From Enterococcus asini ATCC 700915 (GTDB taxonomy: Bacteria; Bacillota; Bacilli; Lactobacillales; Enterococcaceae), in NCBI RefSeq assembly GCF_000407365.1, contig NZ_ASVU01000001.1, forward strand, positions 1,769,501-1,833,500: 64,000 bases of DNA, written 5' to 3'. The notes below the pieces were generated by a model, which did no database searches, had not been told where the DNA came from, and was given only the letters and a program-made list of their open reading frames with translations. The translations under genes and the position numbers were made by a program. This document shows positions 33,514-53,030 of the stretch, in pieces; the stretch's first letter is position 1, and every line of letters begins with the position of its first letter.

Positions 33514-33628
33514 AAGCCTTTTGTTCATTACAGTTATATTTCAAAATGCATTAAGTTGTGACAAATAAAAAGCTTCATGAGATAATACGGAAGTGTGCTT
33601 TAAAATACCTTTTAAAAGGAGCGGTTCT

Positions 33629-34498: not shown

Positions 34499-34502
34499 GA
34501 AA

Positions 34503-36124
<1,622 letters not shown>

Positions 36125-36133
36125 ATTCTGTCC

Positions 36134-36167
36134 ACTTGCCCAACTGAGTTAAACTAGTTGGGCAAGT
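36134..36167 (+). promoter_or_regulatory. 12-bp perfect hairpin between rmlB and rmlD
   Basis: ACTTGCCCAACT pairs fully with AGTTGGGCAAGT (36134-36145 with 36156-36167) around a 10-base loop. No T run follows, so a full terminator is unlikely. A stability or attenuation element is more plausible. Confidence 0.6.
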
Positions 36168-36205
36168 TTGGGGCAGGAGACAGTCTGAATAATGGAGGCA
36201 ACGAA

Positions 36206-37045
36206 ATGATTTTACTAACAGGGGGCAACGGTCAACTAGGCACAGAACTCCAACATCTACTAAACGAACAAGGTCAAGAATTCGTGGCCACAGACGTGAA
36301 AGAATTAGATATTACGAATGCTGAAGCGACCATGGAGTACATCCAAAAACTTCAGCCGACGATTATTTATCATTGTGCGGCCTATACTGCGGTGGACAAA
36401 GCCGAAGAAGAAGGCAAAGAACTAGACGAAAAAATTAATGTGGATGGCACCCGTAATGTTGCCTTAGCAGCAAAAGCGGTGGATGCATTGTTGGTTTACG
36501 TTAGTACCGACTATGTCTTTGATGGAAAGTTGAAAGACGGGGAATATGCTGTGGATGCGCCGACGAATCCGTTAAACGAATATGGTCGGACGAAATTACT
36601 CGGAGAACAAGCGGTGGAAGAGATCATGGAGCGCTATTACATCATCCGGACTTCTTGGGTCTTTGGTCAATACGGGCACAACTTTGTCTTCACCATGCAA
36701 AGCTTGGCGGAAACTCATCCGAAATTAACAGTGGTCAACGATCAATTTGGTCGACCAACTTGGACGCGGACATTGGCAGAATTCATGACTTTTGCGGTAG
36801 AAAAACAAGCGCCTTATGGCGTGTATCATTTGTCTAATGACAACAGTTGTTCGTGGTACGAATTTGCCAAAGAAATTTTAAAAGATACAGATGTAGATGT
36901 TCAACCAGTGACTTCAGAACAATATCCTCAAAAAGCTATACGCCCTCAATATGCAGTCATGGACTTGAGTAAGACTAAGGCGTTGGGCTTTGAAATCCCG
37001 ACTTGGGAAGAAGCATTGGCGCAAATGTTGGCGCAAGGAAAATAA
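36206..37045 (+). CDS. rmlD: dTDP-4-dehydrorhamnose reductase
   Basis: This 279-residue NADPH-dependent reductase gives dTDP-L-rhamnose in the fourth step. GGNGQLGTELQ is at the N-terminus, and STDYVFDG and YGRTKLLGE (YxxxK) form the active site. The ATG at 36206 follows ATGGAGG, and a longer in-frame start at 36158 would lie inside the hairpin. Compositional change to A+T-rich DNA begins right after this gene. Confidence 0.95.
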   Translation: MILLTGGNGQLGTELQHLLNEQGQEFVATDVKELDITNAEATMEYIQKLQPTIIYHCAAYTAVDKAEEEGKELDEKINVDGTRNVALAAKAVDALLVYVSTDYVFDGKLKDGEYAVDAPTNPLNEYGRTKLLGEQAVEEIMERYYIIRTSWVFGQYGHNFVFTMQSLAETHPKLTVVNDQFGRPTWTRTLAEFMTFAVEKQAPYGVYHLSNDNSCSWYEFAKEILKDTDVDVQPVTSEQYPQKAIRPQYAVMDLSKTKALGFEIPTWEEALAQMLAQGK

Positions 37046-37073
37046 ATAGCGATTGCTAGAAAGAAGAATTCAG

Positions 37074-38243
37074 ATGACAAAAATTTCCGTTTTTGGATTA
37101 GGATATGTTGGGCTCGCAAACGCATTGCTACTCTCTCAGAATGAGAATGTCACAGCGTATGATATTGTTGGCGAAAAAGTAGATATGTTGAATGATCGAA
37201 AATCGCCTATTGAAGATGCGGAAATCCATAAATTTTTACTAAGAGAAGATTTGAATATTCATTTTACGAAATCGTTCTTGGAAGCTGTACAATTTGCTGA
37301 TTATTTGATTGTTGCAACCCCAACTGATTACGATGAGAAAAAAAATTATTTTGATACTTCTACTGTAGAGGATGTTATTTCGAAAGCATTAGAAATTCGT
37401 CCAGATGCAACTTTTATTATCAAATCGACTGTGCCGGTTGGTTATACAAATCAGATAAAAGAAAAATTCAAAACAGAAAATATTGTTTTTTCACCAGAGT
37501 TTTTACGTGAAGGAAAAGCACTGTATGATAATTTGCATCCAACAAGAATCGTAATTGGTGAGTGTTCTGACCGTGGGCAACAAATAGCTGATTTGTTTAA
37601 GGAAAACGCGGTAGATAATGAGATTCCGGTATTGTTGACGCACTCTACTGAAGCTGAAGCGATTAAATTATTTTCCAATACTTATCTAGCTTTACGAGTA
37701 GCTTTCTTCAATGAGCTTGATACTTATGCAGCAGTCCGGGATTTAAACTCTGGTCAAATAATTGAAGGTGTTGGCTTAGATCCTCGCATTGGTTCCCATT
37801 ATAACAACCCTTCCTTTGGGTATGGTGGTTACTGCTTACCAAAAGATACTAAACAACTACGTGCTAATTTCGAAGATGTGCCAAACAATATCATTGGTGC
37901 AATCGTGGATGCCAATGTTACTAGAAAAGACTTTATTGCTGAACAAATTCTAGAAAAAAATCCAAAAGTTGTTGGAATCTATCGATTGACAATGAAATCT
38001 AATTCCGATAATTTTAGATATTCTTCAATTCAAGGCGTTATGAAACGAATAAAGGCAAAAGGAATTGAAGTAGTGGTTTATGAGCCAACTTTATCAGAAG
38101 ATACCTTTTTTAATTCTAAAGTCTTGAAAGATTTAGATGAATTTAAAGATATTTCAGATGTAATTGTTTCTAATCGATATGAAGAATCTTTATCTGATGT
38201 GATGGATAAAGTGTACACCCGTGATATTTTTCGACGAGATTAA
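37074..38243 (+). CDS. ugd: UDP-glucose 6-dehydrogenase (UDP-sugar dehydrogenase)
   Basis: This 389-residue NAD-dependent enzyme oxidises a nucleotide sugar, most likely UDP-glucose to UDP-glucuronate. The Rossmann start is [16 protein letters not shown]. The catalytic Cys is in [13 protein letters not shown] (about residue 258), and FSPEFLREG and [14 protein letters not shown] are family marks. The short length favours the streptococcal-type UDP-glucose enzyme over ManNAc dehydrogenases. The ATG at 37074 has weak GAAGAA upstream. It implies a uronic acid, and so negative charge, in the polymer or its decoration. Confidence 0.87.
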
Positions 38244-38302
38244 TAGTTGAGTAATTATATTCGATGCAGTCCTCTTGGTTTGAAAAAAACTTGGCTTTTT
38301 TG

Positions 38303-38345: not shown

Positions 38346-38483
38346 AGAAAATACTAATACATAGCTGTAAAAAATTCTTGATAGCTGATGTACCAATTTG
38401 ATTTGGAGAGTTAGTCATTTTGGAAATAATGCTGAAATTATACAAATTAAAATTTCAGGTTAATGAATAGGAGTGTCAATTCT

Positions 38484-39281
38484 GTGTTTGAGAAAAAAAA
38501 TCGTATTTTACTGCGGGAACTTGTAAAGACGGATTTTAAATTGCGTTATCAAGGTAGTGTGATTGGGTATCTATGGTCCGTTTTGAAGCCACTCATGCTT
38601 TTTGCAGTTATGTATGTGGTGTTTATCTACTTCCTAAGGTTTGGGGACGATGTTCCTCATTTTGCTGTGGCTTTACTTTTAGGAATGGTCTTATGGCAAT
38701 TTTTTACAGAAACTACAAGCCAAGGAATGCAATCAATTGTAATTCGGGGGGATTTACTTAGAAAACTGAGTTTTCCTTCTCATATTGTCGTGGTTTCTGT
38801 TTCAATCAATGCTCTGATAAACCTGGTAATTAATTTGATTATTGTTTTTATTTTTGGTTTGATAAATGGGGTTGAAATAACGAAGTTTGCGATGATTCTC
38901 CCGTTTTTACTAGTAGAGTTGTATGCATTTTCTTTGGGGGTAGCATTCATATTAGCTACAGTTTACGTCAGATTTCGTGATATTGGTCCAATTTGGGAAG
39001 TCTTATTGCAAGCTGGGATGTATTTGACACCAATTATTTATCCGATAACTCTTGTAATTAATATGAGCCCTAAGATAGCAAAAATATTGATGATGAATCC
39101 TTTGGCACAAATTATTCAAGATGCTCGTCATGGGCTTACTAGCACGATAAATCTCACTGTGTGGCAGCTTGTGGGAAATAAAGCGTTAGTTGCGTTTCCT
39201 TATATTTTACCCTTTGTATTATTGATTGTTGGATTTTTAATATTCAATAGAAATTCTAAGAAATTTGCGGAGATTATTTAA
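38484..39281 (+). CDS. ABC-2 polysaccharide exporter permease (Wzm/TagG-like)
   Basis: This 265-residue membrane subunit has six hydrophobic segments. It opens with the typical LLRELVKTDFKLRYQGSVIG and YLWSVLKPL and ends before the ATPase gene. It exports undecaprenyl-linked polymer together with the next gene product. The GTG at 38484 is chosen because AGGAG lies 9 bases upstream. An ATG at 38463 is in frame but precedes that site. Homologous to epa locus exporter permeases. Confidence 0.9.
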   Translation: MFEKKNRILLRELVKTDFKLRYQGSVIGYLWSVLKPLMLFAVMYVVFIYFLRFGDDVPHFAVALLLGMVLWQFFTETTSQGMQSIVIRGDLLRKLSFPSHIVVVSVSINALINLVINLIIVFIFGLINGVEITKFAMILPFLLVELYAFSLGVAFILATVYVRFRDIGPIWEVLLQAGMYLTPIIYPITLVINMSPKIAKILMMNPLAQIIQDARHGLTSTINLTVWQLVGNKALVAFPYILPFVLLIVGFLIFNRNSKKFAEII

Positions 39282-40550
39282 ATGAAGAATAACGTAGCAG
39301 TAAAAGTAAGTAATGTGAGCAAGACTTTTCATTTACCAACTGATAATAGTACCAGTTTAAAAAGGACAATTGTTAACTATTTTAAGGGGATAAAAGGCTA
39401 CCGAGATCAAAAAGTTTTGAGAGGCATTTCCTTTGAAGTGAATCAAGGAGATTTTTTTGGAATTGTAGGACGTAATGGTAGTGGTAAGTCTACCTTATTA
39501 AAAATCATTTCACAAATTTATTTTCCAGAGCGTGGCACTGTAGAAGTTAATGGAAAATTAGTATCTTTTATTGAGTTGGGAGTAGGCTTTAATCCTGAGC
39601 TGACTGGAAAAGAAAATGTTTACTTGAATGGCGCGATGCTGGGGTTTCCTGAAAAAGAAATTGATGAAATGTATGGAGATATTGTTGCGTTTGCCGAATT
39701 AGAAGATTTCATGCACCAAAAACTAAAAAATTACTCTAGTGGTATGCAAGTCCGACTAGCTTTTGCAGTGGCTATTCAAGCAAAAAGTGACATTTTGGTT
39801 TTAGACGAGGTCTTAGCTGTGGGTGATGAAGCGTTTCAACGGAAATGTAACGATTATTTTTTGAATGCGAAACGTGACAAAAAAACAATTATTTTGGTTA
39901 CCCATGATATGGATTCTGTCCGTAAGTATTGCAACCGAGCAATATTAATCGATAAAGGAGAAATAAAAGTGATTGGGTCTCCTGACGAAGTAGCCAATCA
40001 ATATTCTTTAGATAATGTTACACAAAAAGGATCTGCGACTGTTATTGAAGAGGTCGTCACTCAAAACACTCCTGAGCCAATCGAGGAAGTTGAAGAAAGG
40101 ATAAATAATGTCCAAAACCAAAAGGAAAACCTTTCTCCTGTTCGTGATTTAAAAGTTAGGTTACTTTCTAAAAAGTTGTTGGAGGATTCAGATAGAGTGG
40201 TAGAATTTGAAATTTCTTATAACGTTTTAGAAGATATTCCTACTTATATTGCGTTTTCCATGGTAGATATCGACCGTAACGTGTGGATTTACAATGATAA
40301 TTCGTATGATTTCAAAACTTCTAAAGCTGGGGAAAAACTTTTCCGCTATACCTGTCACTTGTCTGAACTTAACAAATGCAAACTAAAATTAAATGTGGCC
40401 GTTCGAAATGACGAAGATGAACCAATGATTTTTTCTGATACAGAAAATTCACCAGTGCTTATAATTTCGCCGAAAGCAAATATGACTAAAAGTGAAAGAA
40501 TTGCAAGTAGTGGCGTTATCAAGAAAAATGGACAATGGACAGCGAAATAA
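39282..40550 (+). CDS. ABC polysaccharide exporter ATPase with C-terminal domain (Wzt/TagH-like)
   Basis: This 422-residue protein has an N-terminal ABC domain: Walker A GRNGSGKS (about 64-71), signature YSSGMQVRLAFA, Walker B DILVLDEVLAVGDE, H-loop VTHDMDS. A linker rich in Glu, Asn and Gln (about 245-285) joins a C-terminal beta domain of about 130 residues, Wzt-C-like, that may recognise the glycan end. It starts directly after the permease stop, so the pair is one unit. Confidence 0.92.
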   Translation: MKNNVAVKVSNVSKTFHLPTDNSTSLKRTIVNYFKGIKGYRDQKVLRGISFEVNQGDFFGIVGRNGSGKSTLLKIISQIYFPERGTVEVNGKLVSFIELGVGFNPELTGKENVYLNGAMLGFPEKEIDEMYGDIVAFAELEDFMHQKLKNYSSGMQVRLAFAVAIQAKSDILVLDEVLAVGDEAFQRKCNDYFLNAKRDKKTIILVTHDMDSVRKYCNRAILIDKGEIKVIGSPDEVANQYSLDNVTQKGSATVIEEVVTQNTPEPIEEVEERINNVQNQKENLSPVRDLKVRLLSKKLLEDSDRVVEFEISYNVLEDIPTYIAFSMVDIDRNVWIYNDNSYDFKTSKAGEKLFRYTCHLSELNKCKLKLNVAVRNDEDEPMIFSDTENSPVLIISPKANMTKSERIASSGVIKKNGQWTAK

Positions 40551-40576
40551 TCATTTACAGAAGTTAGGAGAGAATG

Positions 40577-43477
40577 ATGAATACAGTTTCAGTTATTGTG
40601 ACATGTTATAATAAAGCTCCATTTATAAAGCAATGTATTGAGAGCATCTTTAACCAGTCAATACAAACCATTGAGTTATTGGTGATTAATGACGGTTCGA
40701 CGGATGAATCGGATGAAATTATTCGTAAGACGATAGAGAAGTCCCCTTTCAAAAAAACGGATTATGTTAATCAGAAAAATTTAGGAGCCTGTTTGTCGAG
40801 AAATATTGGGTTAGATTGGGCAGTTGGAGAATATATTTTAATTGTCGATGGAGATAATTATTTAGAGCCAAACCATATCGAAAAATCTTTAAACACCCTA
40901 CTTGAATCAGATTCTGATATTGTATACTGTTCTTTAAAAAACTCTGACACGGGAGAAGTTTTAATCGAAGCACCAGATTTTTCACTGGGACGGTTAATAA
41001 CAGTAAACTTTATTGATACCTGTTCTCTTTTCAAGAAGGGGATTCTTGGTAGTCACCGCTTCGATCCAGAACTAAATCGGCTGTTTATGCAAGACTATGA
41101 TTTCTTTTTAAGCTTAATACACTCTGGAGCTAAAGCCACGAAAGTACCGAATCTTTACTTAAATTACCGAGTATTAGATAACTCTCAAGGAAATCGCGGT
41201 GATGATCGTTTAAAAAGAATCAAGTGGATTGAAGTTTATAACTATATTATTCAAAAGTACCCAGAATATTTAAATAATCAAACAACCCATATGGGTAGTT
41301 GGTATCGGGAACTTAACAATCAATATGAGCATAAAGTCGAAGAAAGTAATCAAAATAAGAATCAACTGGATGAATTGTCCATTCAGCATTCTTTCCTGCA
41401 AGAAAAATCTGACAAGTTGAATCGAATTAATGATTTATTACAAAAAGAAATAGAAGAACAATCAAAAAAAATAGAAGAACAATCAAAAAAAATAGAAGAA
41501 CAATCAAAAAAAATAGAAGAACAATTAAAGGAATTAAAATTAAAAGAAAAGACTGTTCGTGTCAAGGAAATGATGATAGAGGATAAAGATACTCATATTT
41601 TTAACATCGAAAATCAATACGCGGATATTATGCGATCAAAAACATGGAAAGTAGGACGGGCGCTAACAGCTCCTGTCAGAGTATTGAAGCTTTCAAAACA
41701 ATATATTGATAAGGTCGTTCGTGTATATCGAGTTTCCGGGACTAAAGGCGTAATCAATAAGATTAAAAATAAGCAAGTTGAAAGAGATAGTAGCTATAAA
41801 GATTGGATTGTAAATAGAGAGTCTAGAGATGTATCTGGAGATCGAAAAGATTTAACCAAGCTTGCATATGAGCCTTTGATTTCTATTTTAATTCCCGTTT
41901 ATAATGTTGAAAAAGAGTGGCTTAACAAATGTGTAGAATCGATACAAAATCAATGGTACAAAAATTGGGAGATCTGTCTGGCAGATGATTGCTCTACAAA
42001 AAAAGAAACGAAAGAAACTCTGAAACAGCTTCAAAATTTGGACAATAGAATTAAAGTTGTATTTAGAAAAGAAAACGGACATATTTCTGAAGCTACCAAT
42101 TCTGCTTTAGCTTTAGCTAAAGGTGAGTTTATCGCTTTGGTGGACAATGATGATGAACTTCCAGCAAATGCTCTATACGAAGTAGTAAAAATACTTAATG
42201 AGAACCAAGACTTATCTTTAATATATTCTGATGAAGACAAAATCGATGAATATGGTGAACGTTTTGATCCGCACTTTAAACCAGATTGGTCTCCAGATTT
42301 AATTTTAAATCAAAATTATGTTTCTCACCTTGGTATTTATAGAACCTCTATTGCACGAGAAATTAATGGATTTAGAAAAGGGTTTGAAGGAGCTCAAGAT
42401 CACGATTTCTTGCTTAGGTTTGTTGAAAAAATTAATCGTAACGAAATTGCCCATATTCCAAAGATTTTATATCATTGGCGTGCAATTACTGGATCTACGG
42501 CTTTAGCTTCTGGAGAGAAAAATTATGCTTACGATATTGGTGTTAAATCTGTTCAAGAAGCACTAAAAAGAAGAAAGATTAACGCTGTTGTCAAAAAAGG
42601 TAGGTATCCTGGGGTTTACGATGTGAAGTATGATTTAGTGGAAGAAGCAAAAGTTTCAATAGTCATTCCTACTCGGAATGGTTATGAAGATTTGAAAACA
42701 TGTGTGGATTCCATTATCAATAAATCATCATATCCAAACTATGAAATTATCATAGCAGATAACGGGAGTGATGATCCTAAAATGCAAGAATTGTTTGCTT
42801 CATATCGTGAATTATTGGGAAGTCGATTCAAGAATGTTCTTTTAGATATGCCATTTAATTACTCACGTATTAATAATCTTGCAGTAGAAGCATCATCTGG
42901 AAAGTATCTGTTGTTTCTAAATAACGATACATCAATTATTAGTTCGGACTGGATTGAGACGATGCTTGGTTTTTGTCAATTTGACAGAGTTGGTTGTGTG
43001 GGTGCTAAACTTTGGTATATGGATGATACTATTCAACATGGTGGGGTGATAGTTGGTTTAGGGGGTGTCGCTGGACATACTTTCCTAAATGCAGGAAAAG
43101 ATAATCCTGGTTATTTTAGTAGGCTTTATACAGATTATAATTATTCTGCAGTTACAGCTGCGTGTTTAATGATTAGTAAATCAGATTTCAATCTCGTTAA
43201 CGGTTTTGATGAAACTCTTGAAGTTGCGTTTAATGATATTGATTTATGCTTACGAGTAAAAGCACTTGGAAGAGATAATGTTTGGGCACATGATGCTGAA
43301 TTGTATCATTATGAATCAAAGTCTAGAGGTTATGAGGATACACCAGAAAAGGTGAAACGCTTCAATCGAGAAATAGAAAAGATGCAAGTAAGATATGGAG
43401 AAGAATTGTTGCACGATCCTGCGTATAATGAAAACTTCTCCTTAAATGCAGCACCTTTTACTGTAATTGGTCGATAG
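40577..43477 (+). CDS. Large glycosyltransferase with three GT2 domains and a coiled coil
   Basis: This 966-residue protein has GT2 domain 1 (about 1-220, VSVIVTCYNKAPFIKQC, LVINDGSTDES, LIVDGDNYLEP). A coiled-coil linker (about 240-330) contains IEEQSKK heptads, and YADIMRSKTWKVGRAL follows. GT2 domain 2 (about 430-670) has ISILIPVYNVEKEWLNKC and ALVDNDDELPANALYEV. GT2 domain 3 (about 690-940) has VSIVIPTRNGYEDLKTC, FLNNDTSIIS and FNDIDLCLRVKALG. It probably builds a repeat unit by sequential transfers. The second of two ATGs is chosen by spacing from AGGAG (first at 40574). It resembles EpaN-type proteins. Confidence 0.9.
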   Translation: MNTVSVIVTCYNKAPFIKQCIESIFNQSIQTIELLVINDGSTDESDEIIRKTIEKSPFKKTDYVNQKNLGACLSRNIGLDWAVGEYILIVDGDNYLEPNHIEKSLNTLLESDSDIVYCSLKNSDTGEVLIEAPDFSLGRLITVNFIDTCSLFKKGILGSHRFDPELNRLFMQDYDFFLSLIHSGAKATKVPNLYLNYRVLDNSQGNRGDDRLKRIKWIEVYNYIIQKYPEYLNNQTTHMGSWYRELNNQYEHKVEESNQNKNQLDELSIQHSFLQEKSDKLNRINDLLQKEIEEQSKKIEEQSKKIEEQSKKIEEQLKELKLKEKTVRVKEMMIEDKDTHIFNIENQYADIMRSKTWKVGRALTAPVRVLKLSKQYIDKVVRVYRVSGTKGVINKIKNKQVERDSSYKDWIVNRESRDVSGDRKDLTKLAYEPLISILIPVYNVEKEWLNKCVESIQNQWYKNWEICLADDCSTKKETKETLKQLQNLDNRIKVVFRKENGHISEATNSALALAKGEFIALVDNDDELPANALYEVVKILNENQDLSLIYSDEDKIDEYGERFDPHFKPDWSPDLILNQNYVSHLGIYRTSIAREINGFRKGFEGAQDHDFLLRFVEKINRNEIAHIPKILYHWRAITGSTALASGEKNYAYDIGVKSVQEALKRRKINAVVKKGRYPGVYDVKYDLVEEAKVSIVIPTRNGYEDLKTCVDSIINKSSYPNYEIIIADNGSDDPKMQELFASYRELLGSRFKNVLLDMPFNYSRINNLAVEASSGKYLLFLNNDTSIISSDWIETMLGFCQFDRVGCVGAKLWYMDDTIQHGGVIVGLGGVAGHTFLNAGKDNPGYFSRLYTDYNYSAVTAACLMISKSDFNLVNGFDETLEVAFNDIDLCLRVKALGRDNVWAHDAELYHYESKSRGYEDTPEKVKRFNREIEKMQVRYGEELLHDPAYNENFSLNAAPFTVIGR
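41450..41533 (+). repeat. 21-bp tandem repeat encoding IEEQSKK heptads
   Basis: Three exact copies of ATAGAAGAACAATCAAAAAA plus A (starts 41450, 41471, 41492) and one diverged copy (41513). Each unit encodes seven residues, one coiled-coil heptad, so copy-number change keeps the frame. Confidence 0.95.
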
Positions 43478-43600: not shown

Positions 43601-44560
43601 ATGAAGTTAATTATTCAAATACCTTGTTATAATGAAGCCGAAACATTGGAAATTGCGTTAAATGATCTTCCCAAAAAAATAGACGGTATTGATGAAATAG
43701 AAGTACTTATTATTAATGACGGTAGTAAAGATAATACGGTTGAGGTAGCAAAAAACTGGGGCGTAAACTATGTTGTTAATTTCAAACGAAATAAAGGTTT
43801 AGCTAAAGGATTTATGGCAGGGATAGATGCAGCCTTGAGGAATGGAGCAGATATCATTGTTAATACCGATGCAGATAATCAGTATGCTGGAGAAGATATT
43901 GAAAAACTTGTGCGACCAATTTTAGATGGAAAATCTGATATTGTTATTGGTGAACGACCAATTATGGATACTGAACATTTTTCTCCTTTGAAAAAACGAT
44001 TACAGAAGTTTGGGAGTTGGGTTGTACGAAAAGCATCTAACTCGGATATTCCTGACGCGCCAAGTGGTTTTAGGGCATATAGTCGAAATGCCGCTATACA
44101 GTTAAATGTTGCTAACGAGTATACTTATACTCTTGAAACTATTGTCCAAGCTGGTAGAAATAAAATTGCGCAAACTTCAGTCCCAATTAGAACTAACGCA
44201 GAGCTAAGACCGTCAAGACTGTTTTCGAGTATGTTTGGATATGTAAAAAAATCCATGTTAACCATTTTACGTGCATTCATGATGTACAAACCGTTGAGAT
44301 TTTTTTCATTATTAGGCGGTATTATTTTTGCAGTGGGTGGATTAATTGGTCTGCGCTTCCTCTTTTTCTTTTTTCAAGGAACAGGTAATGGACACATACA
44401 GTCTCTCATATTATCGAGTACTTTGATGATGATTGGCTTTCAGACGTTTGTTATTGGATTACAAGGGGATATGATTGCCGCAAATCGAAAAATTCTGGAG
44501 GATATTCAGGTTCGTGTTCGAAAAATGGATTATTCTCAGGACTTAGATTCCAAAAAATAA
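43601..44560 (+). CDS. GtrB-like GT2 with C-terminal membrane helices
   Basis: This 319-residue protein has a GT2 domain (about 1-220: IQIPCYNEAETLEIAL, IINDGSKDNT, and NTDADNQYAGEDI with the metal DxD). Two membrane helices follow (FSLLGGIIFAVGGLIGLRF and SLILSSTLMMIGFQTFVIG). This layout is that of polyprenyl-phosphate sugar transferases (GtrB/DPM1), which make a lipid-linked sugar used outside the cell. AAAGAGGAG precedes the ATG at 43601. A much longer in-frame start is rejected. It lies directly before two GT-C-like genes that could use its product. Confidence 0.85.
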   Translation: MKLIIQIPCYNEAETLEIALNDLPKKIDGIDEIEVLIINDGSKDNTVEVAKNWGVNYVVNFKRNKGLAKGFMAGIDAALRNGADIIVNTDADNQYAGEDIEKLVRPILDGKSDIVIGERPIMDTEHFSPLKKRLQKFGSWVVRKASNSDIPDAPSGFRAYSRNAAIQLNVANEYTYTLETIVQAGRNKIAQTSVPIRTNAELRPSRLFSSMFGYVKKSMLTILRAFMMYKPLRFFSLLGGIIFAVGGLIGLRFLFFFFQGTGNGHIQSLILSSTLMMIGFQTFVIGLQGDMIAANRKILEDIQVRVRKMDYSQDLDSKK

Positions 44561-44597
44561 TTTTTATCCTCATTTTTTATGCAATGGGAGTTTATTG

Positions 44598-46388
44598 ATG
44601 AAAAAAATAATTAATAAGGTAGCTACGAAGGAAACGGGTAGAATTTTTCTCGTACTCCTAGCTTCTTTTTTGACTGTGTACAGAATTATACTTCAACTAA
44701 AACTTCCTCCAGTTACATTTGCTGGTGGTGGGGTAGACGAGCATGTGTTTGTAATGCAAGCAACTGAAATTTTAAAAGGGAATTGGTTTGGGGATTATAA
44801 TTCCAATACATTGGTAAAGAATCCAATGTATTCGTTCTTTTACATTTTTGTAAATAAGATTGGAGTTGCATATCCTTTTGCGTTGATAATGTTCTACATC
44901 TTCTCCATCATTGTATTGATCTGCGCACTAAGTCCAGTTATGCGAAGTACCTTATTTCGATTTTTTGCCTATATATTTTTGCTCTATTCTCCTGTAATGT
45001 TGGATAAAAAATTCGGGTTTCGGCTATACAGAGATGCTCTATTAACTCCTTTAATTGTATTACTAGTTGCAAGCTTGATTGCACTTTTCTTGTATCGCAA
45101 TCGTTCTAAGTATTTGCTAATTGCTTGGTCAATTTTAGCAGGGGTATCGTTTTTTTCTTTTACGTATCTTCGTGAAGATAGTATATGGTTAAAACCACTT
45201 TTTTACGTTGCTTTGGCTATCACATTCTTTTTCATTCTATTTGGTAAAGAACGTGTGTTAGAGAAAGTAATAAAAATGGGATCACTGCTAATACCAATTG
45301 CCATATTCTTTGGTTTAACTATGGCTCTTAGTCATCAAAATGAAGAAAAATATGGGATTTATGCAGTTAATGACCATACACAAACACATTTTCAAAATGT
45401 TATTGCCGACTTAATTGCAATTGATGATGGGACAAATCAAGAGTATATTTGGGTACATCGAACTGCATTAAGGAGTGCTATGGAAGTTTCTCCAACCTTG
45501 AGAAAACTTGAAGAGCAATTTGATAGTTTTTATGTTCCAAATTCTACATTGATGGTGAAAATTGATGGAGAAAAGCAGCAAGAAATGTTTAGTGGAAAAG
45601 TAGTTTGGCTTTTACGCTTAGCTGTCGAAAGAGCCGGGGTAGGTTATCAACAGGAATTAGTCGTAAATGGAAAAAAAGAACTCGGTGGTAAAGTCACAGA
45701 TAATTTCTATAAAGCGATTCATGAGGAATTGATGGCGGGCTTTAATGATGGGCGCCTGAAGAAAAGAAGTGGCGGAATCTCTGTTTCAAAATCGGCCCCT
45801 GCCAAAAAGATTGAAGATATCAAAAAGAATGTACTTCCTAAAATATTATATACAGCTCAGGAAACGGCGCTATATCGGAGTTATTTTGTTACCGAAGATA
45901 ATCGAGCTGTTAGTGGAGATGTTATGGCAACGAGAGAAATAGAGATGTTGATTAATTCACCTTTGAATTATCCCGTCAGCTCTGAACAAGCTCAGTATAA
46001 TAAATCAATTGGCGGAGTTGTCAAACGTATTAATCGAATTATTTCGCTATACAAAATAACTAGTATTCCTGTGATTATTCTGTCTATTATAGGCTTTGTT
46101 TCTTCTATTATAAATTTGAAAAGACAAGGTTATAATGATAAGCACTTCTTGATTGTACTAGTATCTATTGGTTTAGTATTGTCATATTTTATCCTACTAT
46201 TAGGAGTTTCCTGGGCGTATTCCTGGGTGTCGGGTGACACTATGAATCGATTATACTTTTATAGTAGTGGGGCGATTCCAATTTTGCAGATTATTTATAT
46301 ACTCTGTTTTGGAGCATTGTTTGAAGCATTGGGCAGGCGTAGTCAGATGATGGGAAAACATCAGAAAACTGAGCGTGTATCGGAATAG
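44598..46388 (+). CDS. Polytopic membrane protein, probable GT-C-type glycosyltransferase
   Basis: This 596-residue protein has about nine N-terminal hydrophobic helices (to about 240), a large external segment (about 250-470) and three C-terminal helices. The first external loop GGGVDEHVFVMQATEIL contains acidic residues placed like the catalytic Asp/Glu of GT-C enzymes. I do not recognise a named family with certainty. The ATG at 44598 lies 7 bases after GGGAG. A hairpin overlaps its stop codon. A role in extracytoplasmic decoration is an inference from its GtrB-like neighbour. Confidence 0.72.
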   Translation: MKKIINKVATKETGRIFLVLLASFLTVYRIILQLKLPPVTFAGGGVDEHVFVMQATEILKGNWFGDYNSNTLVKNPMYSFFYIFVNKIGVAYPFALIMFYIFSIIVLICALSPVMRSTLFRFFAYIFLLYSPVMLDKKFGFRLYRDALLTPLIVLLVASLIALFLYRNRSKYLLIAWSILAGVSFFSFTYLREDSIWLKPLFYVALAITFFFILFGKERVLEKVIKMGSLLIPIAIFFGLTMALSHQNEEKYGIYAVNDHTQTHFQNVIADLIAIDDGTNQEYIWVHRTALRSAMEVSPTLRKLEEQFDSFYVPNSTLMVKIDGEKQQEMFSGKVVWLLRLAVERAGVGYQQELVVNGKKELGGKVTDNFYKAIHEELMAGFNDGRLKKRSGGISVSKSAPAKKIEDIKKNVLPKILYTAQETALYRSYFVTEDNRAVSGDVMATREIEMLINSPLNYPVSSEQAQYNKSIGGVVKRINRIISLYKITSIPVIILSIIGFVSSIINLKRQGYNDKHFLIVLVSIGLVLSYFILLLGVSWAYSWVSGDTMNRLYFYSSGAIPILQIIYILCFGALFEALGRRSQMMGKHQKTERVSE

Positions 46389-46404
46389 TCGATACACGCT
46401 CAGT
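46368..46404 (+). promoter_or_regulatory. 15-bp perfect hairpin spanning a stop codon
   Basis: ACTGAGCGTGTATCG pairs with CGATACACGCTCAGT around a 7-base loop (46383-46389) holding the TAG stop of the upstream gene. Only TTCG follows, so it is not a classical terminator. Confidence 0.7.
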
Positions 46405-46440
46405 TTCGATATAACATTCATGAATGAAGAGGATTTAATA

Positions 46441-49191
46441 ATGGTTTATTTTGAAAAAATGAAAAAATTGATAAGAAATAATCAAAAGTATTTAGTTGCT
46501 ATCATTGTCATAGCGTTTATGCTTTTGTTACTCTATAGTCCAATTATTTTTGATGGTTGGAAATTATCATTTACTAACGTTACATATTCTTTTTCACCAT
46601 TTGATAGTTTGGGAGTAAAGACTAAAGGCCCTTTTTTATCTGATCCCGCAGATAACGTGTATCCAATTGCTTATCAGTCTATTCATAATCTAACATTTAC
46701 ATCATGGATTTCCATGTTAGGAATAGGCGCACCACAGAGCATGTCAATCTATCTATTTTTTTTAAACTATGTCTATCTTTTGCCATTTGATATAGCACCT
46801 CTAGTAATTTCCATTGTAAAAGTGCTCATTGCTTTTTTTGCTATGTATTTTTATATGAAGCATCTTAAAATTTCTCGCATTGGCTGCTATATTTCGAGTG
46901 TATCATATGCTTTGTGCTCAACGATGGTAGTCTGGCATGGGTGGCCTCACTCAGAAGTTACAATGTTGGCGCCTCTACTTTTTTTAGTGATGGACTTATT
47001 ATTAGAAAAGATTAAAGTAAGTACGATTGTTTGTGGAAGCCTTATAATTTTTTGTATGCTAGTTGCTGGAATGCCTACCTACACTGCTTATTTTATGTAT
47101 TTGGTTGGTTGCTATGTATTATATTATGGGTTAAAAAAATATTGGAACGATAAGCGAAAGTTATTAGGCTATTTTTTTAGCTTTTTTGCTTGTGTAGTTT
47201 TGGGTGCATTACTTTCATTACCGTATACTTTGGAATTACTTCAGACGGTGGGTGGTAATGGCTATAATGACTCTAGAAAGGGGCTTGCGGAAGCAAAGCT
47301 GAGCTTGGATTATTTACGAACTTTATTTTTCCCATATGTTCGTGAAGATTTGACAATTCATGTTAACGAAGCTACTTTATATACGGGGATTTTAGCCATG
47401 GTTTCCTTACCATTGTCGTTCCTAAATATCAAAAAGAAACCAAAAGATATGTTTTTCTTAGTCTCATTAATTGTTCTGTTCATCCTTGTATTTACGAACC
47501 TACTATCGCCGATTTATCAGATGTTACCATTAGTAAACACTTCGATTAGATACCGATTAATAGTTTTAATTAACTTTAGTTTATCGGTTTTAGTTGGATT
47601 GAATATTGGGGATATATTCGAAAACTTGGCGGATTACAAAAAGAAAAAGTTTTTCTTTGTTTCCTTGTTAGGAATTGGGATTGGCTTCTTTTACATTGCT
47701 TATTCGATCATTGACTCTTATAAATTAAGTAAGGCACTAAATGAGCAAGTAGATACTGCTAAGTTGGTACTAATTGCGTTATTCGTTATTTGTGTAATCA
47801 CTTTATTTGTAAAAAATAGGGTGACAATAACATTATGTAAGTTGTCGTTAATTATTTTAGTTATTATTGATATGGCTGGGTTTGGCAGTTACTATTTGCC
47901 ATTAATTTCGAACGATGCATCAGTTATACCTCCCATAACCGATTCATTGTCGTATGTTAAAGAAAATACGAAAAATCAAGAAAAAACAGCATCTATCGGA
48001 CAATGGACTTTTTTTGCTTCAAATAATATGTACTATAATATTAGAGATGTTCGTGGTCATAATTTTGTATACACGAATAAAGATATTAAAAATTATTATG
48101 AAGCAATAGATGACGAAGCTTATTCAACGCCGACAAGAATCGCTTTTCACAAAATTGATAACGAGAACTTGTTAAAGTATCTTGGGGTCAAATACATTTT
48201 AAGTGAATCAGAGGGGGCTTCTGATCGAGAACCATTTATCTCCGGTGTTACTCCGCTGAGAGAATTTTATGAAGGTGAAAAAGTATTTACTCAGACATTT
48301 ACAGCCACTGAAAACAATTTATCTACATTAAAATTGATGATTGGTACTTACCAAGGAAAGTTCACAGAACAGGATAGTGTAGCGATTCAACTTATTGATT
48401 TACAAAGTGATGAGATAATACGGCAGGCGTCAACTTCTCTTTATAAACAGAAAGATAATGATTACATCACTTTTTCTTTTGATCCCATTGGGAATTCAAA
48501 AGATACTGAATACAAACTTGTGATAAAAACCAATGTTCAAGAGGAGCATAAAATTACTTTCTATGCCAGCAATGAAAAAAGCTATGAAGGTGACTTTTCG
48601 GAAACTGATTACAGAGGAAATCTGGTCCTACAGCCTTTTTATAGTACGCAAAACGAACGTATTGGTGGAGACGGTATTACGGTAAGGGAGCTAGAAGACT
48701 TCTCTCAGCAAATCCAGCTAACTGATGAAATAATCACGGAAAAAACATCGAAAGATGTTCTTTCTTCGATGGAGAATAATTATAGAAAAAACAGAGTGTA
48801 CTTTTCGAAAGAAGATAATTATCCTAATGTACTAAATAGCAATAAACTAAGTGCGGAGGAAAGCATTAGTTCTCCAGTAAATAACCGTGATGGCACAATT
48901 TCTTTTGATGCGACCGTTGATGAAAGTCGTGTTGTATTGATAAATGAATATAACGATGGCAATTGGGATGCATATATTGATGGACAAAAAACTACTGTAT
49001 ATAAAGGTAATTACTTATTCAGGGCAATTGTTATTCCAAAAGGAAACCACACAATTGTCTTAAAACACAATAGTAAAAGTTTATTTATTAGTTGGATTGT
49101 CACCGGTGTCACAGTAGTCGTGCTTCTTATCCTAGTTCTTTTTAGGAAAAAACTTCAGATACTTTTGAGCAAATATGGAATAACAGTTTAA
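46441..49191 (+). CDS. YfhO-family membrane glycosyltransferase-like protein
   Basis: This 916-residue protein has an N-terminal helix, the YfhO-type external loop YSFSPFDSLGVKTKGPFLSD and about a dozen further helices to about residue 500. A large external domain (about 510-875) follows, with a C-terminal helix and a basic end. YfhO proteins are GT-C enzymes that glycosylate wall polymers such as lipoteichoic acid from a lipid-linked sugar. The ATG at 46441 follows AGAGGA, and in-frame starts further upstream lie in or near the hairpin. Confidence 0.82.
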   Translation: MVYFEKMKKLIRNNQKYLVAIIVIAFMLLLLYSPIIFDGWKLSFTNVTYSFSPFDSLGVKTKGPFLSDPADNVYPIAYQSIHNLTFTSWISMLGIGAPQSMSIYLFFLNYVYLLPFDIAPLVISIVKVLIAFFAMYFYMKHLKISRIGCYISSVSYALCSTMVVWHGWPHSEVTMLAPLLFLVMDLLLEKIKVSTIVCGSLIIFCMLVAGMPTYTAYFMYLVGCYVLYYGLKKYWNDKRKLLGYFFSFFACVVLGALLSLPYTLELLQTVGGNGYNDSRKGLAEAKLSLDYLRTLFFPYVREDLTIHVNEATLYTGILAMVSLPLSFLNIKKKPKDMFFLVSLIVLFILVFTNLLSPIYQMLPLVNTSIRYRLIVLINFSLSVLVGLNIGDIFENLADYKKKKFFFVSLLGIGIGFFYIAYSIIDSYKLSKALNEQVDTAKLVLIALFVICVITLFVKNRVTITLCKLSLIILVIIDMAGFGSYYLPLISNDASVIPPITDSLSYVKENTKNQEKTASIGQWTFFASNNMYYNIRDVRGHNFVYTNKDIKNYYEAIDDEAYSTPTRIAFHKIDNENLLKYLGVKYILSESEGASDREPFISGVTPLREFYEGEKVFTQTFTATENNLSTLKLMIGTYQGKFTEQDSVAIQLIDLQSDEIIRQASTSLYKQKDNDYITFSFDPIGNSKDTEYKLVIKTNVQEEHKITFYASNEKSYEGDFSETDYRGNLVLQPFYSTQNERIGGDGITVRELEDFSQQIQLTDEIITEKTSKDVLSSMENNYRKNRVYFSKEDNYPNVLNSNKLSAEESISSPVNNRDGTISFDATVDESRVVLINEYNDGNWDAYIDGQKTTVYKGNYLFRAIVIPKGNHTIVLKHNSKSLFISWIVTGVTVVVLLILVLFRKKLQILLSKYGITV

Positions 49192-49287
49192 GAGTGGATT
49201 GTATAGGAAACAATAATGACTATTAGGAATTTTAAAGTATTGTATGATTGCAAGAATTTTAGTCTGTACCATAGTGGAGGGAATCAC

Positions 49288-51027
49288 TTGAAAAAAAAAA
49301 TATCAATTTTATTAATTATTTTGTTATGCTTGTTTCAAAATTCAACGATAAGCTTTGCAGAGAGTTCTGCAAATGATGTGAGTGAGAGTAGTACAGAAAA
49401 TTCTTTTCAGGAAAGTTCATTGGAGAGTAGCTCAATGTGGGAAATGGGCACTGTCTCTTCGACTGAACAGCTTACCGAAACTACAGAGAGTTCATTAGAA
49501 ACAAGTAGCGAGTCTAGTTTATCTAATAGTTCTACTACTGAAAGTACAGTTGAACCAGATGAAGTTAGTGATGTGCCAGAAAAGGTTGAAGAACAGATTG
49601 ATGAGGCGTCAAATAAAGAGATGGGCACAAATTTCAAAACGGACTCTAATAAACTTGCGAGAGCTGGAAGATCATCTGTTATAGCTGGTAATAACAATAC
49701 TCCAGAGGCTAATTTTATCGATGTTTCTAGTCATAACGGAACAATTAGCGTATCTGATTACAAAGAAATGATTCGCTATGGAGTAACAGGAGTTGTAGTA
49801 AAAGCGACGGAAGGAACTTCATATAAGAACAGTTACTATTTTGAAGGACAGGTAAAGAATGCATTAGCGGCAGGATTGAAAGTATCCGTGTATCATTACG
49901 CTCACTACACAACAGCTGCTAAAGCACGAGCGGAAGCAGATTATTTTGCTTCATACGTCGAAAGTATTGGGATTCTGGATAAATCCGTTAATATGGTAAT
50001 TGATATAGAGGAAAATGCTATGAAAAATGGTAGTCTTAGTTTAAATACAATTGCTTTTAAAAATAGACTAAATTCGCTGGGGTTTTCTAATGTGCTGTAC
50101 TATACTTCGGCATCTTGGATTACTGAATATGGTGATGGTGGAGAGTTAAGCGCTAATACATTTGGTTATCAGAATATTTGGATTGCACATTACCCAACTA
50201 ACTTGACATCTAATATGAACTGGTATAGCAAGTATGCTTCTTGGCAATGGTCTTCAGTCTACGTCTTTCCTTCAAAATCAGATGTTTATTTTGATATTAA
50301 TCAGGATTATGGTGGTCGCTTTACAAATAAAGACCTGCTTGATAATGGAAATGTTTATTACTTTAAAAATACATTTTCAGCTGGTAATGCAGATCTAAGA
50401 GTAGTATATGGCAGACCGGAAGATGTGACATATTTCGGTGATTGGAATGGCGACGGCAAAGATACGTTTGTCGTTCGCAGAGGCAATATGTACTATTTTA
50501 AAGATTCGTTATCTAGTGGTGAAGCAGATGTCACCATCTCATTTGGAAGAGATGGTGACCAAGTTTATTTTGGTGATTGGGATGGTGATGGGAAAGACAC
50601 TATTGCTGTTAGAAGAGATAATAAGTATTATTTTAAAAATGATCTTTCTGACGGTGAAGCAGATTTTTCTGTAGCGTATGGACGTGGGACGGATGATTGC
50701 TATTTTGGTGACTGGGACGGTGACGGAAAGGAAACAGTTACTGTTAGACGTGAAAATATTTTCCATATTAAGAATTCGATTTCTTACGGTAATGCTGATA
50801 TCATGATTGCCTATGGTAAGCCAGATGATGAGATATTTATCGGTGATTGGAATGGGGATCAAGTTGACGGCTTGGTAGTAAGGAGATTGAATGCTTATCA
50901 CATTAAGAACAATCTAACAACTTCCGGCGTTGCTGAAAGAGTAGTTACTTATGGAAAAGCAACGGATAGAGTGTACTTTGGCGATTGGACAGGGACTGGT
51001 CTTGAGTCAATTGTTGTTAGACGGTAG
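49288..51027 (+). CDS. Secreted GH25 lysozyme with FG-GAP-like C-terminal repeats
   Basis: This 579-residue exported muramidase has a signal peptide (about 1-26, ending SFA before ESSAND) and a Ser/Thr/Glu-rich linker (about 27-135). The GH25 domain is at about 140-345: FIDVSSHNG, VVVKATEGTSYKNS, VIDIEENAM (catalytic acid pair), YYTSASWI. Five repeats of about 45 residues follow, each with a YFGDWNGDGKD-like Asp-rich loop that may bind calcium and probably wall glycan. The start is TTG at 49288 behind GGAGG. It may remodel peptidoglycan where polymer is attached. Its place inside the polysaccharide cluster is notable. Confidence 0.88.
   Translation: MKKKISILLIILLCLFQNSTISFAESSANDVSESSTENSFQESSLESSSMWEMGTVSSTEQLTETTESSLETSSESSLSNSSTTESTVEPDEVSDVPEKVEEQIDEASNKEMGTNFKTDSNKLARAGRSSVIAGNNNTPEANFIDVSSHNGTISVSDYKEMIRYGVTGVVVKATEGTSYKNSYYFEGQVKNALAAGLKVSVYHYAHYTTAAKARAEADYFASYVESIGILDKSVNMVIDIEENAMKNGSLSLNTIAFKNRLNSLGFSNVLYYTSASWITEYGDGGELSANTFGYQNIWIAHYPTNLTSNMNWYSKYASWQWSSVYVFPSKSDVYFDINQDYGGRFTNKDLLDNGNVYYFKNTFSAGNADLRVVYGRPEDVTYFGDWNGDGKDTFVVRRGNMYYFKDSLSSGEADVTISFGRDGDQVYFGDWDGDGKDTIAVRRDNKYYFKNDLSDGEADFSVAYGRGTDDCYFGDWDGDGKETVTVRRENIFHIKNSISYGNADIMIAYGKPDDEIFIGDWNGDQVDGLVVRRLNAYHIKNNLTTSGVAERVVTYGKATDRVYFGDWTGTGLESIVVRR
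50341..51024 (+). repeat. Five tandem FG-GAP/VCBS-like protein repeats
   Basis: Five units of about 45 codons share Y-x-x-K-N, then A-D, then YFGDWDGDGK, ending V-R-R. Units four and five have weaker Asp loops (GDWNGDQVD, GDWTGTGLE). Confidence 0.85.
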
Positions 51028-51040
51028 CTGTCTAACAACA
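51012..51040 (+). promoter_or_regulatory. 11-bp perfect hairpin spanning a stop codon
   Basis: TGTTGTTAGAC pairs with GTCTAACAACA (51012-51022 with 51030-51040). The 7-base loop (51023-51029) contains the lysozyme stop TAG. There is no T run. Confidence 0.7.
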
Positions 51041-51094
51041 GTTGATTACTTGTGAATGAATAATATTTACAGTAGAAAAGTTGGAGGTAAATCA

Positions 51095-52051
51095 TTGAAA
51101 AACAACCTGAATAAGTCGTTAAAAATCATTGGTAACATAATTACTATTGTGGCTATTTTCTATGTTATCAAGAGATTAATGAATAATGATTATGATTACA
51201 GCCAGTTGCTAGTTTCAAAAAATATTTTTCCGATGTTGATTATTATTGTTGTACAATCTGTGATGGTAATGACCAATGCTTTTCCATGGAAAATATTAGT
51301 AGAAATGTTAACAGAAAGAAAAGTTCCTTTTGTAGAGACAATTCCAGTATATGTAAGTGCAAACTTGATGAAGTATGTACCAGGTAATGTTTTTCAATAT
51401 GTTGGAAGAAATCAGTTGGCTGTACGTAATCGTCTTCCGCATTTACCAGTTGCTTTAGCGACTATGTTAGATGTCCTAATTACAGTAATCGCCGCTGCAA
51501 TAATTTCCATTTTCTTCTTATACGATTTTATAGCAAAATATTTACGAGTTAATTCTTGGATGCAGACTGCATTGATTATAGTAGGAATTATCATCGTTTT
51601 GGCGGTATTTTTAATGTTTTTGTTTAGGAATCAAATATGGAAAAAAATTGAAAATTATAGTTATCTTTTTAGTACGAAAAGTATCAAAACGATACTAGTC
51701 GCTTTGATTTACTATATTATTGTATTGATGATTTCGAGTTTGATGTATTTAATCGTTGTTATTTATATCACCGATACTCCACTTAGCTCACAAGTTTTTC
51801 TCCAGTTATTTTCTGCGTATACGCTTGCGTGGCTTGTGGGCTTTATCACGCCTGGAGCACCTGGAGGTATTGGAATAAAGGAACTTGTCATGGTCGCTGT
51901 AACTGGAGGGTATATTGGTACTGATGTAATCACTCTTTCAATGGTAATTATCCGAATATTGCTAGTCGTGGCAGATTGTATAGCATTTGTATTCGGCAAA
52001 ATTTTTGAGATTATATATAAGACAAAGGGGAGACAAAATGCTTCCAATTGA
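51095..52051 (+). CDS. LPG-synthase-like membrane protein (UPF0104/AglD family)
   Basis: This 318-residue protein has about eight membrane helices. It resembles the flippase-like transmembrane domain of MprF and the AglD family, with LMKYVPGNVFQYVGRNQLAV and the conserved GFITPGAPGGIGIKELV motif. A lipid or lipid-linked-sugar handling role is likely. There is no synthase (acyl-aminoacyl) domain, so aminoacylation is not expected. The start is TTG at 51095 with TTGGAGG upstream. The ATG at 51056 lacks a site. Its stop overlaps the next gene. Confidence 0.82.
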   Translation: MKNNLNKSLKIIGNIITIVAIFYVIKRLMNNDYDYSQLLVSKNIFPMLIIIVVQSVMVMTNAFPWKILVEMLTERKVPFVETIPVYVSANLMKYVPGNVFQYVGRNQLAVRNRLPHLPVALATMLDVLITVIAAAIISIFFLYDFIAKYLRVNSWMQTALIIVGIIIVLAVFLMFLFRNQIWKKIENYSYLFSTKSIKTILVALIYYIIVLMISSLMYLIVVIYITDTPLSSQVFLQLFSAYTLAWLVGFITPGAPGGIGIKELVMVAVTGGYIGTDVITLSMVIIRILLVVADCIAFVFGKIFEIIYKTKGRQNASN

Positions 52052-53030
52052 AGAAATCGAAAAAAAGTTTTATAATAAAAAAATTCTTTTTATATCTACT
52101 AAAAATTTAGACTATATCCGAAACACCCAGGAAATAAACTGGTTAAAAGGGCTAGCAAGTGAAATAGAAATAATTTGTCATCCTTCGAACAATTATTTTA
52201 TCAGGCTGTTTTTTGTATACCTCAAACTATTACCCAAATTAATTAAACGAGATTTTGATGGCTTATTTTTAGGATTTGCTCCCCAGCTACTGTTTCCGTA
52301 TTTTCCATTTTTACCTAAGAATAAGTTGATTGTCATGGATTTTTTTATTTCTTTTTATGATACTTTAGTAGACGATCGGAAGAAAATAAAAGATAATACG
52401 TTTTTTTCAAAAGCACTGCATTTTTGGGATCGAAAAACTTTAGAAAAGGCTGATTGTGTAGTTGTTGATACAAAAGCTCATGGAGAATTTTTTTCAGAAG
52501 AATTTAGAATAAATAAAAGAAAAATCGGGGTTCTGTATATCGAGGCAGATTCATCTATTTATCAACCGCACCCAAGGGAAAAAAATGCTAAATTTGAAGT
52601 AATCTATTTTGGAAGTATTCTACCAGTTCAAGGGATTCAAGTTATATTAGATGCATTAAAACTGCTAAATAATCATTCAGAAATTCATTTTACTTTAATC
52701 GGCCCCATTGGATCAAAATTTCAAGTGAATGAGATGGATTTTCCAAATGTGACGTTTATTCCTTGGGTTACTCAAAAAGACTTAGCTGAGTATATCAATC
52801 AAGCTGATCTTGCTTTATCGGGACATTTCAGCAGCACTGTAGGAAAAGCAAATCGGACAATCGCTGGCAAAACATATATTTATTTAGCTATGCAAAAAAA
52901 AATTATTTTAGGAGATTCCGATGCCAATCGAGAATTATATAAACCGTCGACTAATATTTTTTATGTCGAAAGAGGGAATCCTCAGGCTTTGGCGAATCTC
53001 ATTATGGATATATCGTCGGGAAACCCATAA
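52038..53030 (+). CDS. GT4-type glycosyltransferase
   Basis: This 330-residue GT-B enzyme has an N-terminal acceptor half and a C-terminal donor half, VIYFGSILPVQGIQVILDAL, FTLIGPIGS, NVTFIPWVTQKDLAEYI, then AGKTYIYLAM. It lacks a strong signal for donor choice. The ATG at 52038 overlaps the LPG-synthase-like gene by 14 bases. It is the last gene of the locus. The next gene (mltG) has its own promoter and core-like base composition. Confidence 0.82.
   Translation: MLPIEEIEKKFYNKKILFISTKNLDYIRNTQEINWLKGLASEIEIICHPSNNYFIRLFFVYLKLLPKLIKRDFDGLFLGFAPQLLFPYFPFLPKNKLIVMDFFISFYDTLVDDRKKIKDNTFFSKALHFWDRKTLEKADCVVVDTKAHGEFFSEEFRINKRKIGVLYIEADSSIYQPHPREKNAKFEVIYFGSILPVQGIQVILDALKLLNNHSEIHFTLIGPIGSKFQVNEMDFPNVTFIPWVTQKDLAEYINQADLALSGHFSSTVGKANRTIAGKTYIYLAMQKKIILGDSDANRELYKPSTNIFYVERGNPQALANLIMDISSGNP

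Follow-up and report, generated by a model that had tools for sequence, protein, structure and literature searches.

The question raised by a polysaccharide locus of Enterococcus asini ATCC 700915 (Enterococcaceae, Lactobacillales, Bacillota; 64,000 nucleotides, that is, G000:C1:1769501-1833500 of a 2.57 Mb genome, hereafter the window) is what one putative lipid-sugar synthase of the GtrB type, followed by two large membrane proteins of differing types, would do there. An earlier note, made from the sequence itself, had read five genes at 43,601–52,051, all of which are open plus-strand frames, as a system that charges a lipid carrier, flips it and transfers the sugar outside the cell. We find this interpretation partly supported and add to it a link with a UDP-glucose dehydrogenase gene (ugd) that the note did not have. 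In the mechanism that we propose, Ugd would make UDP-glucuronic acid, GtrB (43601; genes are named by their start in the window) would move glucuronic acid (GlcA) onto undecaprenyl phosphate (Und-P) inside the cell, a PF03706 protein (51056) would flip the lipid-linked sugar, and two glycosyltransferases of the GT-C type (44598 and 46441) would pass it on to the polysaccharide that Wzm/Wzt exports, each at a different position or in a different linkage. That the class of system is right we consider very probable; our confidence in the whole statement, sugar, flippase and shared donor included, stops slightly short of even. The genes on which it turns are the following.

37053..38243, plus strand: ugd, UDP-glucose 6-dehydrogenase, likely source of UDP-GlcA, opening a stretch of low guanine-cytosine content (GC) (NCBIfam, PF03721).
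43601..44560, plus strand: predicted GtrB-type Und-P sugar synthase (PF00535, 91.8 bits; PHROG 'GtrB-like', 2.8e-29).
44598..46388, plus strand: putative GT-C glycosyltransferase 1, with no sequence family found (fold model; invariant Asp47 and Lys74).
46441..49191, plus strand: putative GT-C glycosyltransferase 2, a divergent YfhO (PF09586, 82.7 bits, cut-off 28.5; Asp68).
51056..52051, plus strand: LPG_synthase_TM membrane protein, candidate Und-P-sugar flippase (PF03706, 33.7 bits, cut-off 33.4).
61861..62292, plus strand: GtrA, rival flippase and the genome's only PF04138 match (Pfam).

The synthase is the firmest element. In addition to the family matches that bear out its description as GtrB-like, 43601 carries a DADNQY motif and two C-terminal hydrophobic segments, and a profile of 14 sequences matched, among solved structures, dolichol-phosphate-mannose synthase (1.5e-17), ArnC (9.4e-14) and Sll0501 (2.6e-10). 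We read it from its sequence as a polyprenyl-phosphate sugar synthase, with the features of the membrane-linked GT-A enzyme of a multi-component transmembrane glycosylation system. Close relatives (82–100% identical) occur in 6 of 395 Lactobacillales genomes (E up to 1e-45, own genome included), and at 84–86% identity in 4 of 22 genomes of the genus of E. ureasiticus; across the phylum, 11 of 398 genomes hold a match (E up to 1e-50, own included), the others being 50–70% identical and from other classes. We compared 15 GtrB loci (numbered L, with genomes numbered G), namely the six from Lactobacillales and nine from other classes of the phylum (53–70% identical), leaving out a fragment at a contig edge in G565. 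These loci are related to each other and their stretches differ in length, that of L096 ending 2.5 kb past GtrB and that of L117 1.0 kb past it on one side.

The two large membrane proteins, described earlier as GT-C-like and YfhO-type, can be placed by different means. For 44598, no match at E 0.01 was found in Pfam, NCBIfam or PHROGs, but a model built from a 32-sequence alignment (predicted local distance difference test (pLDDT) 89.7, predicted template modelling score 0.91) has ArnT as its best match in Foldseek (9.9e-4, the sole match below 0.001). A second structure comparison against the PDB again ranked ArnT first (Z 18.3): 43 entries with Z 18.3–8.5 are GT-C-fold proteins (ArnT, PMT, STT3/PglB/AglB, ALG, Aft/Emb, DPY19, PIG-U and PimE), and the next row falls to 4.1. 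PIG-U and the translocon chains among these are counted as GT-C for their GT-C fold or their identity as STT3. Judged by the model, 44598 has a GT-C fold. Its alignment contains ten invariant columns, of which Asp47 is the sole acidic one, with Lys74 following; in the model Asp47 stands at the start of the helix that follows the first long one, and by the known pattern of GT-C enzymes it would be the catalytic residue. In 46441, a PF09586 protein, Asp68 lies in the first loop region and is invariant in six aligned sequences, the other invariant aspartate being Asp290. The first-loop aspartate that the earlier note had proposed to look for is thus present in both, in model and alignment for 44598 and in sequence for 46441, as in a GT-C transferase with an outer-loop aspartate. 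With a synthase in 43601, a GT-C fold and its aspartate in 44598 and a YfhO protein in 46441, the logic of charging, flipping and outside transfer is well supported.

The system is embedded in what its gene content identifies as a rhamnopolysaccharide locus of the type of the enterococcal polysaccharide antigen (EPA), with rml genes, GT2 backbone transferases and wzm/wzt in a single cluster (Pfam/NCBIfam). The other genes of this cluster are as follows.

31209..33513, plus strand: 31209, 31964 and 32758, GT2 glycosyltransferases that presumably build the rhamnan backbone (PF00535).
33593..37045, plus strand: rmlA, rmlC, rmlB and rmlD, the dTDP-L-rhamnose pathway for the precursor of the presumed acceptor polysaccharide (Pfam/NCBIfam).
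38463..40550, plus strand: wzm/wzt, ABC exporter of polysaccharide (PF01061, PF00005).
40574..43477, plus strand: presumed polymerase of the backbone, a large protein that matches PF00535 in three GT2 stretches.
49216..51027, plus strand: GH25 lysozyme; hydrophobic, signal-like stretch at the N terminus; weak FG-GAP repeats (PF01183, 137 bits; FG-GAP below cut-off).
51987..53030, plus strand: GT4 glycosyltransferase, its frame overlapping the 51056 gene by 65 bases.

All cluster genes lie on the plus strand, with gaps of 0–219 bases or small overlaps, in the order three GT2, rmlACBD, ugd, wzm/wzt, three-stretch GT2, GtrB, two GT-C-like genes, GH25, PF03706 and GT4, followed by mltG. The exporter that the earlier note had placed upstream is there, matching NCBIfam models of galactan and teichoic acid exporters below their cut-offs. 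E. ureasiticus (L035) and E. ureilyticus (L036) have the same set of rml, GT2 and wzm/wzt genes, with wzm/wzt after the GH25 gene, and the three backbone-type GT2s have an equivalent place in L033, L035, L036, L087, L088 and L096. By gene content the cluster is similar to the epa locus of enterococci, where EF2190 has been proposed as a lipid-sugar synthase and EF2174 is a GH25 protein (PMC7188991).

What the carrier would be charged with is suggested by ugd. The 37053 protein matches PRK15057 at 603 bits (below the cut-off of 757) and the nucleotide sugar dehydrogenase model TIGR03026 at 329 bits (cut-off 190), and is the genome's only PF03721 match over the cut-off, five others falling below. 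A ugd gene lies within 5.3 kb of GtrB in all six Lactobacillales loci (GtrB at least 82% identical): 28–88 bases away in G030, G112, G110 and G199, 3.3 kb in G053 (L033) and 5.2 kb in the window. Given this proximity in six of six loci, and given that the copy here is the only clear one of the genome, the data suggest Und-P-GlcA as the lipid-linked sugar. An rmlB-like gene follows the GT-C gene in G030, G112 and G199 (Pfam Epimerase in G030), so that a modified uronic acid is possible in those three; at that place in the window there is none. In the open-licence PMC literature, searches for Und-P-GlcA and similar terms gave matches with galacturonic acid lipid wording only, and EPA is unnamed among the matches listed for EPA together with GlcA or UDP-glucose 6-dehydrogenase.

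Several observations weigh against GlcA as the sugar. In the other classes, only two of nine GtrB loci have a ugd-like gene nearby (31–32% identical) and three adjoin rml genes, so that the wider GtrB family is not tied to GlcA and our suggestion is limited to the group at 82% identity or more. In addition, UDP-GlcA could feed the three-stretch GT2 40574 instead, relatives of which (54–55% identical) co-occur with ugd in G030, G112 and G199. It is therefore a serious possibility, although we would put it below even, that the system is of the same type with glucose or some other ordinary sugar as the one loaded by GtrB, and that UDP-GlcA enters the backbone or is used elsewhere through a cytoplasmic glycosyltransferase. 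In teichuronic acid, GlcA is taken up in the cytoplasm, and the NCBIfam model that 40574 matches best, below the cut-off, is TuaG. The decorations tabulated in a review are glucose (Glc), N-acetylglucosamine (GlcNAc) and galactose (Gal) (PMC8035078). An ordinary sugar fits less well with the 28–88 bases that separate ugd from gtrB in four genomes, in three of which the 40574 relative lies beyond wzt (the contig ends in G110).

With GlcA retained as the suggested sugar, the next step is its passage across the membrane, for which the earlier note had offered either the LPG-synthase-like protein or the GtrA at 61,861, both of which are present. The family of the former stands; its frame starts at 51,056, and the 51,095 given previously is an internal TTG that is a possible start too. 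Of the 15 loci, 10 have a PF03706-type gene no more than 6.5 kb from GtrB, and in five (L118–L122) it is the next gene. Seven of the ten are confirmed by Pfam (the window, L033, where the relative is 43% identical and scores 50.8 bits, and L118–L122), and three were found by phmmer from 51056 (L116, 1.7e-32; L117, 1.1e-24; L103/L104, 2.2e-35 and 1.3e-43, the gene being cut where two fetched stretches meet). Among 31 membrane proteins from the other 14 loci (a 32nd, which reached the end of its locus, was left out), Pfam identified six PF03706 and two GtrA proteins. Four PF03706 copies in a genome of 2.57 Mb would lead one to expect about 0.03 per 20 kb. In a control of 55 membrane proteins of 200–450 amino acids from other loci or loci without the gene (drawn from 41 loci before one of 56, which ran off its locus, was dropped), two were PF03706, and both (L077 and L085) adjoin a second PF03706 protein and a GtrB-like gene. 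We attach no probability to the proximity, because the loci are related and their stretches differ in length. In L077:14528-18578 (Bacterium BMS3Bbin14) and L085:11939-15989 (a Deltaproteobacteria metagenome-assembled genome), a PF03706 protein, a PF03706 protein with beta-propeller repeats and a GtrB-like protein are encoded consecutively.

GtrA, by comparison, occurs in 3 of the 15 loci, at 17.3 kb from GtrB in the window, 10.8 kb in L103 (beside a GT2 of the 58883 type) and 8.6 kb in L115, and never closer in the stretches examined. With a PF03706-type gene near GtrB in 10 of the 15 loci and GtrA, where present, at least 8.6 kb away, the gene neighbourhood favours 51056 and points to it as the flippase. 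The COG0392/PF03706 family has been proposed to supply flippases of glycosylation systems, chiefly in archaea (PMC5898192), and for GpgF, its member in Pseudomonas aeruginosa, a flippase role is predicted but unverified (PMC12713373).

The case for 51056 has its own weak points. Its PF03706 match is only 0.3 bits above the cut-off, its profile reached solved MprF at E 0.17 only, its model (pLDDT 51) is unusable, and Pfam gave no PF03706 match for the relatives in L116 and L117. Nor was a PF03706-type gene found near GtrB in G030, G112, L096 (where the contig ends), L115 or L123; the clusters of G030 and G112 hold a large membrane protein, Wzx-like by Pfam in G030. The profile used to find PF03706-type genes is not independent evidence, since it was built from the same proteins, and relatives of 51056 were found in 2 of the 97 genomes searched, own included. 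GtrA (61861) remains a rival because one GtrA can serve several systems, as CflA does for three GT-A/GT-C pairs in Lactococcus lactis (PMC8035078), and this genome has a single GtrA, which might be shared with the other lipid-sugar system (the 58883 GT2 and the canonical YfhO) while 51056 has another role (for example, flipping another lipid). Such sharing deserves weight but seems to us less than evenly likely: GtrA is found in 3 of 15 GtrB stretches, a count that would miss any GtrA lying outside the stretches examined. The gene at 58883-59833 encodes a second GtrB-like GT2, relatives of which occur together with a relative of this GtrA and a protein of eight transmembrane helices in G199 (L103:205-2733), just upstream of the epa operon; 58883 and 61861 look like a separate lipid-sugar system.

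If 51056 is retained as the candidate flippase, two transferases would draw on one lipid-linked donor. Behind GtrB, a GT-C of the 44598 type follows in G030 and G112 (52–54% identical), one of the 46441 type (about 41% identical) in G199 and, truncated where the contig ends, in G110, and in G053 an 859-residue protein that has no Pfam match over cut-off and is GT-C-like by eye, with a DEDAH...HPP stretch. One GtrB thus appears, by sequence comparison, to pair with differing GT-Cs by species, and the window holds two types; since the same GtrB adjoins either type in G030, G112, G110 and G199, the gene order seems more than a chance assembly. Reportedly, one lipid-linked galacturonic acid feeds several GT-Cs in the Rhizobium Rgt system. 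Some observations count against a fixed pairing: in the 44598 family a GtrB-like gene lies within 3 kb in 12 of 51 loci, and Enterococcus members (for example, in L043 and L046) stand in other contexts. No relative of 44598 was found in the nine other genomes of its own genus searched, and that of G024 (L032:4886-6551) is split into two open frames and possibly broken. Two large membrane proteins occur in GtrB loci of other classes too (for example, L119 and L122).

Two consecutive GT-C types behind one GtrB are found in the window only, among the six Lactobacillales loci, so that part of the arrangement which the earlier note had called unusual holds. The same singularity, together with the presence of oligosaccharyl transferases among GT-C folds, would allow one of the two to be inactive, or a polymerase or ligase instead of a decorating transferase, which is unlikely in our view, as both retain the loop aspartate and an open frame and each type alone accompanies GtrB in other species. 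Least probable is a lipoteichoic acid (LTA) acceptor as in Bacillus subtilis CsbB/YfhO/GtcA, which the YfhO family membership of 46441 might suggest, because a canonical YfhO lies elsewhere in the genome (G000:C1:974126-976606, 790 bits; 18% identical to 46441), 46441 is no ortholog of the canonical LTA protein (17–19% identical to four canonical YfhO proteins), and the cassette sits inside a rhamnan/ABC-export cluster.

The lysozyme is not part of the oddity. If it was meant to lie between the GT-C genes, it does not: these adjoin, 52 bases apart, and GH25 follows the second. GH25 relatives recur in L033, L035, L036 and six of eight loci fetched from the same genus (L087, L088, L089, L091, L092 and L094; not L090 or L093; a ninth genome, G009, was left out), and with EF2174 itself a GH25 protein (PMC7188991), we regard GH25 as a common passenger of epa loci. 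The GT4 (51987) may belong to the pathway, as its 46% identical relative in a locus from another class (L116:9216-13534) has as neighbours a GtrB (69%), a UDP-sugar dehydrogenase (31%) and a protein related to 51056 (29%). In L033:7142-10134 and L103:7827-11214, what is possibly a second decoration module lies beside the ugd/GtrB cassette; it consists of a GacI-like GT2, a DUF2304 and a DUF2142 protein, and a small membrane protein that is EamA-like in L033. Directly upstream of the cluster, L035 and L096 carry a TagO/EpaA-type PF00953 gene, at whose place the window has an L,D-transpeptidase with ChW repeats (28618-31026).

The cassette was probably acquired horizontally, as suggested by high GtrB identity, patchy presence and low GC. 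GC drops from 0.443 in rmlD to 0.341 in ugd, stays at 0.315–0.369 through the stretch (37,053–53,030) and returns to 0.417 in mltG. In G006 and G007, of the same genus and sharing rml and wzm/wzt, rmlD is directly followed by wzm/wzt, and no ugd, GtrB or GT-C of either type was found in the 20 kb fetched. A point against this origin is that ugd does not mark the only GC boundary, because the three GT2s upstream of rmlA are GC-poor as well (0.36–0.38). A plasmid origin was rejected, the plasmid collection holding no near match of 43,490–53,030, as was a phage origin, with relatives of 51056 or the GtrB alignment found on no viral contig (the phage collection itself lay outside this search). A different polysaccharide-like locus, lacking the rml set, occupies the asnS–mltG interval, as far as it was fetched, in six genomes of the same genus (L089–L094); the interval is possibly a replacement hot spot.

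Systems of this class are known in Gram-positive bacteria (for example, CsdAB, SccN/M and GacIJKL; PMC8035078, PMC11754754). The L. lactis pairs CsdAB, CsdCD and CsdEF with CflA likewise join GT-A to GT-C and decorate rhamnan, pellicle and LTA, but with a GtrA-type flippase, Glc or Gal and one GT-A per GT-C (PMC8035078). Streptococcus mutans also has two GT-Cs in one rhamnan locus, yet SccN/SccM and SccP/SccQ (PMC11754754) comprise two GT-As, each with its own GT-C, and use UDP-Glc, whereas the cassette here has one GT-A and ugd. Rhamnan is likewise decorated from a locus of the gac/epa type by GacI/J/K/L of S. pyogenes and by EF2190 with EF2178/2179, EF2184 and EF2189, in proposed roles, in E. 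faecalis EPA (PMC8035078, PMC7188991). GacI works together with GacJ, a small membrane protein, and GacK, which is of the Wzx type, whereas GtrB has its own C-terminal hydrophobic segments; DUF2304, which we read as GacJ-like, has no match in the genome at E 0.001, in which respect the system departs from the GacI/J/K/L type. CsbB/YfhO/GtcA of B. subtilis and Staphylococcus aureus share the GtrB-type transferase and YfhO, and differ in their LTA acceptor, GlcNAc and GtrA flippase (PMC8035078). For GlcA, the nearest parallel by description rather than sequence is the GT2-type AepG of the archaeon Haloarcula, which makes dolichol-phosphate-GlcA and has two C-terminal transmembrane helices (PMC9943897); archaeal AglD/COG0392 similarly ties a GT2 to a PF03706 domain (PMC5898192). 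Both differ in being archaeal and in using a dolichol carrier.

In summary, systems of this class are known; what look new are the probable sugar, the proposed flippase and the interchangeable GT-Cs. That all of these hold together in general form (that is, an Und-P-GlcA cassette, PF03706 proteins as a dedicated class of lipid-phosphate-sugar flippases in Bacillota, and a shared donor for GT-Cs that are swapped between species, which changes the charge and pattern of EPA) is a broader claim that we think doubtful at present. According to PMC11754754, no flippase had been identified as of 2025 for the lipid-linked glucose added to S. mutans rhamnan, and PMC8035078 described in 2021 as unknown how Glc and GlcNAc are added to EPA; if 51056-type proteins do flip the lipids of such systems, they would be a testable gene family that fills part of this gap. 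A uronic acid side chain would, in turn, make the wall polysaccharide more acidic, which would bear on phage receptors and cationic peptides, and a conserved GtrB with exchangeable GT-Cs would constitute a simple rule by which surface polysaccharides diversify.

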